A stretch of 64,000 bases of DNA, taken from a bacterium 1XD21-70 (GTDB lineage: Bacteria > Bacillota > Clostridia > Lachnospirales > Lachnospiraceae). The notes beneath the pieces are model-generated. The model ran no database searches, was not told the DNA's origin, and was given only the letters and a program-made list of their open reading frames with translations. Location: assembly GCA_003669055.1 (NCBI GenBank), contig RAYB01000003.1, forward strand, positions 124,001-188,000, given 5' to 3'. Below are positions 13,907 to 55,003 of the stretch, one piece after another. The translations under genes and the position numbers were made by a program. Position 1 is the stretch's first letter. The number at the start of each line of letters is the position of its first letter.

Positions 13907-13988
13907 GCCGCAAAGGGAGCCAAGGGCGGGCAGGCCAGGGGCAGAGGAGGGTACCCCTGGCCTGCCCGCCCTTGGCTCCCTTTGCGGC
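13907..13988. repeat. 35-bp perfect inverted repeat (element A)
   Basis: The arm at 13907-13941 is exactly reverse-complementary to 13954-13988, with a 12-base loop. On the minus strand it follows the ackA stop codon (14015) after a run of seven G and ACGCC. The right-hand flank GCG then C-run, and the left flank AAACAGCC, are shared with elements B and C. It may terminate ackA transcription, but it lacks a U-tract. Confidence 0.9.
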
Positions 13989-26148: not shown

Positions 26149-26345
26149 TTCTCTATTCCCTTTCCTGTCATATGCCCGCCGCCAAGCGATATAGTACGCG
26201 GCTCCCAACCGCCTCACAACACCAGACGCTGTCACAGCCACAGCCCAGGCAGCCATCCCCAGGAAAGATCCCAGCATCCAAAGAATGCCAGGAGCACCAA
26301 AAATGCCCGGCATCCCACAGCCATGCTTCCAGGCAAACACACAAA

Positions 26346-26369
26346 AAGCATGGCCATACAGCCATGCTT
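26346..26369 (-). terminator. attenuator-like hairpin in mutS2 leader
   Basis: On the minus strand AAGCATGGC, a 6-base loop, and GCCATGCTT followed by more T. A second AAGCATGGC occurs further downstream (26328-26320), so the middle arm has an alternative partner. Confidence 0.55.
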
Positions 26370-26496
26370 ATCCCGTCCCCAGAAAACAGATACCACACTA
26401 TCAAGCAATTGTAAGGCGAAAACGTCAACGGCTTTTACCCGCCGCCAACCAGGCAGACCCCCAGGCCCAAACTCCCGAAAATCTCCCCTGCAATAT

Positions 26497-26535
26497 TTAT
26501 TTTGCAATTTCCTTCCTCACAACCACACTCAACAT
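26497..26535 (-). CDS. possible leader peptide, 12 aa
   Basis: ATG at 26535 is preceded by AGGAGG with a 7-base spacing, ideal for initiation, and the frame encodes MLSVVVRKEIAK before a TAA. It begins about 25 bases after the predicted transcription start of the mutS2-hem operon. It has no run of one regulatory amino acid. It may be a translated leader or chance. Confidence 0.3.
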   Translation of the reverse strand: MLSVVVRKEIAK

Positions 26536-26566
26536 GCAGCATCCTCCTAAACATTCATTTTCCTCT

Positions 26567-26595
26567 ATTATACCCACCCCCCACCCCCCTGTCAA
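26567..26595 (-). promoter_or_regulatory. consensus promoter with all G/T spacer
   Basis: Minus strand: -35 TTGACA (26595-26590) and -10 TATAAT (26572-26567), both perfect, separated by the 17-base spacer GGGGGGTGGGGGGTGGG. It drives the mutS2-like gene and probably the hem operon. Confidence 0.8.
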
Positions 26596-26675
26596 GCCCA
26601 AACCACCCAATCCCCCAAATACTTCCCTTTAACATCCCCCTCCACCATACACCACCTCACAGCCGCCAACAAACA

Positions 26676-26945
26676 GCCTGGAAGAGCGGGGAGGGAGGGC
26701 GGGGCGGCTGCGGGCAGCGCAGGGAATACCTGGTTTGCATTTGCAGGGATTTTAGGAATGCTTAAGCTTCCATATTTTGCGTTGAAGCGAAAATGCACAC
26801 TGTCTGAGCGCAGCGAGTTTGGGCATTTTCACTTCGCCCTTAGCAAAATACGGAAGCTTTAGCACTCCTTAAATCCCGAAACCACAAACCAGGTATCCCT
26901 GCGCTGCCCGCAGCCATCCCGCCCTCCCTCCCCGCTCTTCCAGGC
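26676..26945. repeat. 270-bp inverted repeat (element B)
   Basis: Arms of about 125 bases (left from 26676, right to 26945) pair almost continuously; the outer 28 bases are perfect. The apex 26799-26820 contains CTGTCTGAGCGCAGCGAG. Inside, the left CATTTGCA (26738-26745) faces a non-complementary stretch, and GTTGAA faces a longer TAA-containing stretch; both asymmetries recur in element C. It lies just after the yitT stop (26973), past a run of C on the plus strand. No coding capacity. Confidence 0.92.
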
Positions 26946-26972
26946 GTACCCCCCCCCAGCCAACAAATCCAA

Positions 26973-27836
26973 TTATGCATCCATCCCCTTAAACCCTTCC
27001 CCAAAAACCTCCGTAGTCTCCGTCACCATGATAAACGCATTCGGGTCGGCACCATAGATAATCCTTTTCAGCTTATAGAACTCATGCTTGCGGATACTGC
27101 AAAGGAGCACCTTCACATCCGCCCCGCTGTAGGCGCCCTTGGCATCCATCACCGTCGCGCTGCGTTCTAGTTCCACCAGGATCCCTTCCGTGATTTTCTC
27201 CGGATACCGGGTCACAATCGTCACCATGCTCCCGATATCGTTTCCGTAAATGATGGCATCCATCACCCGGGTCTGGGCAAACAGGCTGATCAGGCCGAAA
27301 AGCCCTGCTTCCACGTTCTGGAATACGTAGATGGACAACAGCAATATAACCCCATCCACCATCAGCAGCGCCTTCCCGATAGAGATATGGGGCTTCTTTT
27401 TCTGCATAATATATCCCAGGATATCCGTGCCGCCCGTGGTGGAACCGGTCATGAAGATACAGGACATGCCGACTCCCACCAAAATCCCGCCAAACAGGCT
27501 GCTCATCAGCCGGTCTCCCCCATAGGTGGGAAATAAAGGCGCAACCGCAAAGTCCAGGATCACGGAACACACCGCACAGGCAATACCAGTAGTGGCTACA
27601 AACCGGCGGCTAAGCATGAACCAGGCCAATGCCAGCAAGGGGATGTTGAGGAGAATCGTCAGAACCCCAACCGGCAAGCCGCTTAAATAATTGACAATCA
27701 GTGCCAGCCCGACTGCACCTCCAGGTGCAATGTTGGCTGGCATCACAAAGCAGTGGGTTCCGATCCCATAAATGACGGAACCCAATACCAGGAAAAACGC
27801 ATATTTTACCTGCTGCAAACCATGATTTGGATTCAT
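26973..27836 (-). CDS. YitT-family membrane protein
   Basis: A 287-residue YitT-family protein with six hydrophobic helices, the TGGTDILGY motif after helix 4, and a C-terminal DUF2179 domain ending in ETTEVFGEGF. Function of the family is not established. ATG 27836 is preferred because a GGGGG stretch lies seven bases before it; a GTG three codons upstream is possible. It follows the zinc-ribbon membrane protein gene by 18 bases and is last in that operon, directly before element B. Confidence 0.9.
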   Translation of the reverse strand: MNPNHGLQQVKYAFFLVLGSVIYGIGTHCFVMPANIAPGGAVGLALIVNYLSGLPVGVLTILLNIPLLALAWFMLSRRFVATTGIACAVCSVILDFAVAPLFPTYGGDRLMSSLFGGILVGVGMSCIFMTGSTTGGTDILGYIMQKKKPHISIGKALLMVDGVILLLSIYVFQNVEAGLFGLISLFAQTRVMDAIIYGNDIGSMVTIVTRYPEKITEGILVELERSATVMDAKGAYSGADVKVLLCSIRKHEFYKLKRIIYGADPNAFIMVTETTEVFGEGFKGMDA

Positions 27837-54686: not shown

Positions 54687-54737
54687 TACACCACCTCTAT
54701 CCCCCTCCACACACAACCACCACATAAACAACCAGCC

Positions 54738-54992
54738 AAAGAGAAAGGGACCGGGCAGCGGCGCCAAACGGCGCAGGGTCTGCCCAGCACGCATTTGCAG
54801 GGGCTTTAGGAATTCTTAAATCTCCTGGTTTTGCGTTGAAACGAAAATGCATACTGTCTGAGCGCAGCGAGTTTATGCATTTTCGTTTCGCATTTAGCAA
54901 AAACAAGAGATTTTAGAAATCCTTAAGCCCCGAAACCGCGTGCCAGGCAGACCCTGCGCCGTTTGGCGCCGCTGCCCGGTCCCTTTCTCTTT
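54738..54992. repeat. 255-bp inverted repeat (element C)
   Basis: Arms of about 115 bases pair almost end to end; the outer 45 or so are perfect. The apex at 54853-54874 is identical to that of element B over all 22 bases, and the inner arms share about three quarters of their bases with B, while the outer arms differ in sequence but still pair. It lies directly after the amidohydrolase stop codon (55004). Confidence 0.92.
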
Positions 54993-55003
54993 AGCGCACC
55001 CCC

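Follow-up and report, generated by a model that had tools for sequence, protein, structure and literature searches.

What is a nearly perfect 270-bp inverted repeat doing beside a YitT-family gene in the Lachnospiraceae bacterium 1XD21-70, and how have its two arms stayed paired? The repeat, element B, lies at 26676-26945 on the plus strand of the window, the 64,000-nucleotide stretch of contig RAYB01000003.1 analysed here, and its tip on that strand reads CTGTCTGAGCGCAGCGAGTTT. The outer arms (26676-26725 and 26896-26945, 50 nt each) are copy-specific and 96% complementary to one another. Further in, the stem is interrupted by two asymmetric internal loops, the outer with its CATTTGCA side at 26738-26745 and the inner with its GTTGAA side at 26781-26786 (GCGTTGAA / TTAGC), and it closes in a 22-nt apex (26799-26820) that includes GCGCAGC, a GNA-type tip. 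The boundary motifs CAGCC (26674-26678) and GGCGTAC (26943-26949, followed in B by a run of C) recur in copies of the window's genus. The sequence GCCAACAA stands on both sides, at 26665-26672 and 26959-26966, as a possible target duplication in a genome that overall has no excess of such repeats.

B folded as RNA (270 nt, minus strand) at -215.4 kcal/mol (z -23.8) and as DNA (270 nt, plus strand) at -121.6 kcal/mol (z -19.6), with 0 of 200 shuffles as good in either case. Together with the arm complementarity, these scores bear out the long hairpin described in the sequence-only reading. A coding explanation was excluded, there being no ORF of at least 100 aa across 26676-26945 in the window's ORF list. 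A known RNA family was likewise excluded as the identity of B, with every match in an Rfam scan under its curated gathering score (MIR1437 scored 96.8 bits vs 168). The three predicted terminator-like sites were at 26346-26369 and inside the apex region; no such site and no U-tract was found at the foot of B, which lacks the G+C stem followed by a U-tract that marks an intrinsic terminator, in agreement with the earlier view that B is not one. The YitT-family gene (PF02588; 26973-27845, minus strand) points its 3′ end toward B. The hairpin had been placed directly behind the stop codon of this gene, and that placement needs correction, as 27 bp separate the stop (26973-26975, minus strand) from the end of the arm.

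The further copies foreseen for this genome exist. A search of its 4.31 Mb (137 contigs) returned 23 tip matches at up to 3 mismatches and 21 at up to 2, with 0 matches to a reversed control pattern. When the latter 21 were folded, long hairpins formed in all except L035, which is cut by a contig end. Several copies are near contig ends, as expected because repeats break draft assemblies. Similarity between copies extends about 59-73 nt to the left and 61-76 nt to the right of the tip (median ends; L035 cut). About 150 bp around the tip are thus held in common, and the outer arms differ from copy to copy yet remain self-complementary. In B this common core spans 26733-26892, as given by the median ends of the blastn matches for B itself (copy L037). 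The second copy in the window, element C (54735-54995, plus strand), has 202 nt in common with B at 75%, and the two 22-nt apexes (26799-26820 and 54853-54874) are identical. The shared apex and inner part, and the asymmetric loops, were therefore read correctly: the loops are present in B, and the core recurs in the folded copies of this genome. The sharing holds for this inner core and fails for the outer stem. An origin as unrelated long terminators or chance palindromes that happen to look alike could draw on another long perfect hairpin in the window (13907-13988). We regard such an origin as very improbable, and in effect already refuted by the copy number and the conserved asymmetric core, since dispersed copies have a common 150-bp core, the reversed control had no match in this genome, and the foot of B carries no U-tract.

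The distribution among relatives is patchy, in line with a mobile element. With the own genome counted in, 15 of 116 relatives carry the tip at up to 1 mismatch, in 1 to 123 copies each, and these carriers are spread across genus, family and order; inside the window's genus alone the number runs from 0 to 123, the maximum being that of genome G022. Genome G017 lacks the hairpin at the orthologous site but has yitT together with the promoter and leader downstream. Downstream sequence differs at the remaining four yitT-orthologous loci.

The ends of the copies in 1XD21-70, CAGCC...GGCGTAC, are diverged and not plainly an IS66-type terminus. The same pair was dropped as the true ends in G022 because a further palindrome, CAATGTCA...TGACATTG, lies farther out. 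Two end types already occur inside Lachnospiraceae. Hungatella elements with the same core end in GTAACAGTTCAGCC or GTTACNGTTCAC, often with 8-bp duplications alongside, and same-tip hairpins of Hungatella effluvii (G133) carry GTAACAGTTC or GTTACNGTTC at both ends; examples of the 8-bp direct repeats there are GAAAATGA, GCAATTCC, GTTAATAT and TTTCAATA. A permutation test replaced the duplications picked by eye. An exact best flanking 8-mer was seen in 18 of the 33 Hungatella copies (permuted flanks, 10.5%), 11 of 29 in G022 (13.9%), 3 of 15 in G017 (0 in permutations) and, without excess, 2 of 19 in 1XD21-70 (7.5%), some of these best 8-mers lying off the expected position.

A candidate enzyme was found in G022. 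An insertion sequence of 1812 bp has GTAACAGTTCAGCC ends, an exact AATTTTTT on each side and a single open frame of 515 aa. The predicted protein matches PF03050 (E 7e-18, 65 bits, over the cut-off of 23.1), which makes it an IS66-type DDE transposase; NF033517 (E 1.1e-39, 137 bits against a cut-off of 180) and DUF6444 (E 2e-5) stayed under their cut-offs. Ordinary IS66 loci were rejected as the source: 13 PF03050 loci were found in 5 of 8 genomes searched, and 12 of the 13 lack the element-type ends. The terminal repeats of Hungatella copies match those of the G022 insertion sequence and those of G022 copies match in part. Most plasmid relatives of the transposase carry an IS66-family annotation; two are labelled ISGka4 and ISGst1. 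Four of these were fetched; their left ends are GTAACTATTCAGCC (three) or GTAACAAATCAGCC (one), the right ends nearly match, and all have exact 8-bp duplications, the same length and terminus type as in the G022 element (GTAACAGTTCAGCC vs GTAACTATTCAGCC). The name ISGka4 in the plasmid record should carry little weight because PMC8024623 assigns ISGka4 to the ISLre2 family; for G. kaustophilus and its plasmid the same source lists an ISBst12 subgroup within IS66. The protein similarity and the ends lead us to infer that the G022 element is of ISBst12 type, and that the 8-bp duplication and family ends probably define this subgroup. A search of viral contigs with the G022 transposase returned nothing.

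Two H. effluvii contigs (L446 and L428) break in a repeat that starts with GTTACTGTTCAGAGGCCAATGTCAG and ends with CTGAACAGTAAC; over its first 34 bp it is 88-97% identical to the ends of G022 elements. This repeat, the GTTACTGTTCA repeat of H. effluvii DSM 24995, is likely a collapsed insertion sequence. Its body was not found in the searches, one of which met only the same genome again.

Our preferred reading, to which we give somewhat better than even chances, is that in B we see an old copy of a MITE-like element, non-coding and palindromic over its full length, whose family has been moved in trans in Lachnospiraceae by an ISBst12-type IS66 transposase acting on GTAACAGTTCAGCC-class ends and leaving 8-bp duplications. 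An enzyme of this kind would act in trans on the hairpin ends, and the core and tip would be kept since copies without the fold would not spread. The membership of B itself rests on the common core, because its own genome has no match to PF03050, no excess of 8-bp repeats and no plain IS66 ends; the copies there look like inactive relics. Prokaryotic MITEs, according to a review (PMC10969869), are non-coding, under 600 bp, bounded by terminal inverted and direct repeats, present in several to more than 100 copies and able to form a stable stem-loop. The B family is broadly like them. B is short (270 bp) and without coding capacity; fixed-length duplications are found in Hungatella, in excess in G022 and not in excess in the genome of B, where B has GCCAACAA on both sides; and terminal repeats of the G022 insertion-sequence type are seen on Hungatella copies and in part on G022 copies, with diverged ends in 1XD21-70. 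Unlike MITEs, B is one palindrome throughout, its arms are copy-specific yet paired, and the centre is conserved rather than the ends alone. A common core and tip are not required by a MITE and are not explained by the MITE reading, which counts against it, as do the tips of other phyla on elements with different boundaries. The accessible text of that review makes no mention of IS66. The likeness to the ISBst12 type of IS66 lies in the ends GTAAC..TTCAGCC and the 8-bp duplications in five elements read, whereas B is non-coding, its own ends have diverged and no IS66 gene was found in its genome. If the preferred reading is correct, a large interspersed repeat family of Lachnospiraceae gains a plausible IS66-type engine.

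The pairing of the arms was examined in an alignment (A1) of 24 H. effluvii elements from 26 loci, the two with an arm insertion being left out. The core is almost invariant, two-sided changes occur at 57 of 66 outer pairs, and 96.0% of cells are paired. Two-sided cells numbered 432 vs 128.5 ± 9.8 in shuffles, a comparison inflated by relatedness, and vs 40 to 86 with slid partners, which keep relatedness; the structure was taken from one row of the alignment, which favours the true register over the slid controls. Arm covariation, which had been proposed as a check, is thus very strong. In a clade of 8 near-identical copies, all 10 one-sided changes in the outer arms are transitions (8 G.T, 2 A.C), and the 10 two-sided changes include 7 transversions, of which 3 repeat one terminal T-A/A-T difference. 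After trimming, the outer arms of 91 copies contain 2617 Watson-Crick, 43 G.T, 17 A.C and 8 other pairs. On the tip strand G.T outnumbers A.C (43 vs 17, binomial p 0.001) in this trimmed count, which was made after the untrimmed result was known; untrimmed arms, a count that took in spurious arm ends, gave 67 G.T vs 96 A.C and no G.T preference. Such an excess is expected if a folded single strand is under selection, and it suggests that selection may also act on the folded tip strand, as RNA or single-stranded DNA.

A functional structured RNA, that is, a 3′-UTR or small-RNA hairpin selected in host transcripts for stability, termination or double-strand processing, would account for the extreme covariation, the conserved asymmetric loops and the G.T excess on the tip strand. 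It would also suit the placement of the copies. A facing stop codon lies no more than 30 bp from the right end in 7 of 17 copies of the own genome, 16 of 52 in a set drawn mainly from G022 and G017 with a few own and other copies (loci L052-L081 and L287-L340) and 11 of 28 in Hungatella, as against 1, 5 and 4 for the left end; gene starts lie within 30 bp on either side in 0, 4 and 7 cases. These distances refer to mechanical ORFs of at least 75 codons, and some are negative (small overlaps). The copies show an orientation bias, with the right end toward facing stop codons. However, behind a facing stop the mRNA holds the other strand, on which tolerated wobble would appear as A.C. The arms hold few wobble pairs and many two-sided transversions, the untrimmed counts have no G.T excess, and relatives have 8-bp duplications and IS66-type ends. 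With no Rfam match at threshold and a copy number of 0 to 123 within one genus, we consider a host RNA unlikely. A selected RNA or cruciform had been preferred over simple duplication in the sequence-only reading. A maintained fold does find support, because of the further copies and the very strong arm covariation; the family is nevertheless better read as transposable DNA than as an RNA gene or a plain cruciform, given the 8-bp duplications and IS66-type ends in relatives and the hairpin-free site in G017.

How might a transposable palindrome keep its arms paired? Template switching, as described in PMC8794818, yields perfect stems and double substitutions in one event, and switching between the arms would explain both the perfect arms and the double changes seen here. 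Under the palindromic-transposon reading one arm would serve as template for the other at a quasipalindrome, either at replication or at transposition, and the two would so remain complementary; selection on the folded tip strand may act together with this copying. Compared with the template-switch hairpins of that paper, the elements likewise have perfect stems and double substitutions, but their arms of at least 50 bp belong to a mobile element and their core mismatches persist. The arms offer a natural experiment on what lets long palindromes persist in bacterial chromosomes with their arms still paired: with dozens of copies per genome, a conserved core, two-sided arm changes and few wobble intermediates, homogenisation by template switching becomes testable in nature. 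At one orthologous site of the Burkholderiales-type loci L152 and L185 the inner stems differ and the outer flanks are the same, which would fit exchange between copies. The internal-loop regions of L293, L310 and L318 (G022) and of L060 (G013) contain inserted small hairpins whose tip is of the GCCAGTGGC type, so that hairpins lie within hairpins. In L348 and L366 of H. effluvii the left arm holds a common insert some 45 bp long (GAGAGTCCCCCTCATT... type).

A folded tip strand could also be the substrate of a REP-associated tyrosine (Y1, RAYT) transposase, with B as a REP- or REPIN-like element. Like REPs, BIMEs and REPINs with RAYT, as characterised in PMC3733652, the copies are chromosomal, intergenic palindromes, often behind genes and sometimes in inverted pairs (often divergent pairs in Bacteroidales), and the one-strand G.T excess would fit a folded single strand. 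REPs in that account are 20-40 bp palindromes tagged by GTAG or CGTC. At 270 bp B does not fit this size, and no Y1 gene flanked by the repeat was found. Searches for Y1 (PF01797) in the 116 relatives and 20 distant genomes led us to reject such mobilisation. The domain is present in 11 of 15 tip-bearing vs 61 of 101 tip-free relatives, thus without clear association with the tip; it is absent in G017 (44 tips), Noviherbaspirillum G124 (70) and Bacteroides G123 (30), and 0 of 60 Y1 loci have a tip at up to 4 mismatches. The 8-bp duplications furthermore point to a DDE enzyme. We hold movement by a Y1 enzyme to be distinctly improbable.

The tip is not confined to Lachnospiraceae. The exact sequence CTGTCTGAGCGMAGCGAGTTT was found in at least 120 stretches of genome contigs from about six phyla, and the 80 records listed include Pseudomonadota, Bacteroidota, Bacillota, relatives of Geobacter and Desulfuromonas, Nitrospirae, Thermotoga and a Rhodothermia bin; phyla were assigned from record names, and several records are metagenome bins that may be misplaced. 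Of the 74 tips whose flanks were long enough, 54 are borne on arms scoring at least 8, vs 4 of 740 positions drawn at random from these loci, and GCGTNRAR on the left with TAGC on the right accompanies 13 of the 74 tips vs 0 of the 740 positions. Over 236 copies in 4 groups, every base is found at position 12 of the tip in 2 of the groups and most other positions are near-invariant, a conservation partly imposed because the loci were picked by tip match. The GCGNAGC in the tip resembles GNA mini-hairpins, which are very stable in DNA. The boundaries of the Ralstonia and Bacteroidales copies differ from the Lachnospiraceae ones. In the Bacteroidales loci L108, L170 and L273-L282 the tips are paired divergently within composites several hundred bp long, which also have a terminal hairpin, e.g. 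GTTACTTTTGG...CCAAAAGTAAC in Parabacteroides.

The tip found across phyla is explained by none of the families compared. Tentatively, and with our judgement leaning somewhat against it, we propose that the 21-nt tip CTGTYTGAGCGNAGCGAGTTT, read as a GNA-triloop cap, is a structure-specific module of chromosomal palindromes with unrelated ends in some six phyla. These would form a new capped class, spread by a common host process or enzyme. In Lachnospiraceae the class would have been fitted with IS66-type ends, and its arms would evolve fast, both changing together through templated copying. A rival explanation, in which the capped class has its own route of movement or persistence and the IS66-type ends of Lachnospiraceae are a later capture, is unlikely in our view though not negligible. 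It draws on the exact tips and paired arms outside the family, on the other boundaries in Ralstonia and Bacteroidales and on the two end types within Lachnospiraceae. Against it, no enzyme or host factor appeared among the ORFs of loci L093-L194, some records are metagenome bins, and tip conservation is in part a product of the search. The 15 largest ORF clusters of these loci held no protein specific to hairpin neighbourhoods; a common protein beside the hairpins was rejected, as the clusters were translations of hairpins or repeats, low-complexity frames and common families such as ABC transporters. Three versions of the tip had no match in a plasmid collection. In phages the Lachnospiraceae version gave one partial match and the Bacteroides version none, and a degenerate tip met two stretches of IMG/VR viral contigs. 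Among the titles and abstract starts of the matches listed, a literature string search with the motif and its translation met no paper on bacterial repeats. Why the same 21-nt tip should cap palindromes of several phyla and yet have no match in the plasmid collection is a question that these results raise.

Two other features of the window deserve mention. The hairpin at 13907-13988 is of another kind, with 35-bp arms 100% complementary, a 12-nt loop and no tip of the B type. On the side of B away from yitT, a promoter-like site (12/12) on the minus strand precedes a MutS domain V gene. Within 26340-26600 (minus strand), between B and this gene, the perfect-consensus promoter (26595-26567) is followed by a short frame starting ATGTTGAGTGTG and a terminator-like hairpin (26369-26346), an arrangement which suggests a putative leader or attenuator. 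The same layout of promoter, short frame and terminator is kept in G017.
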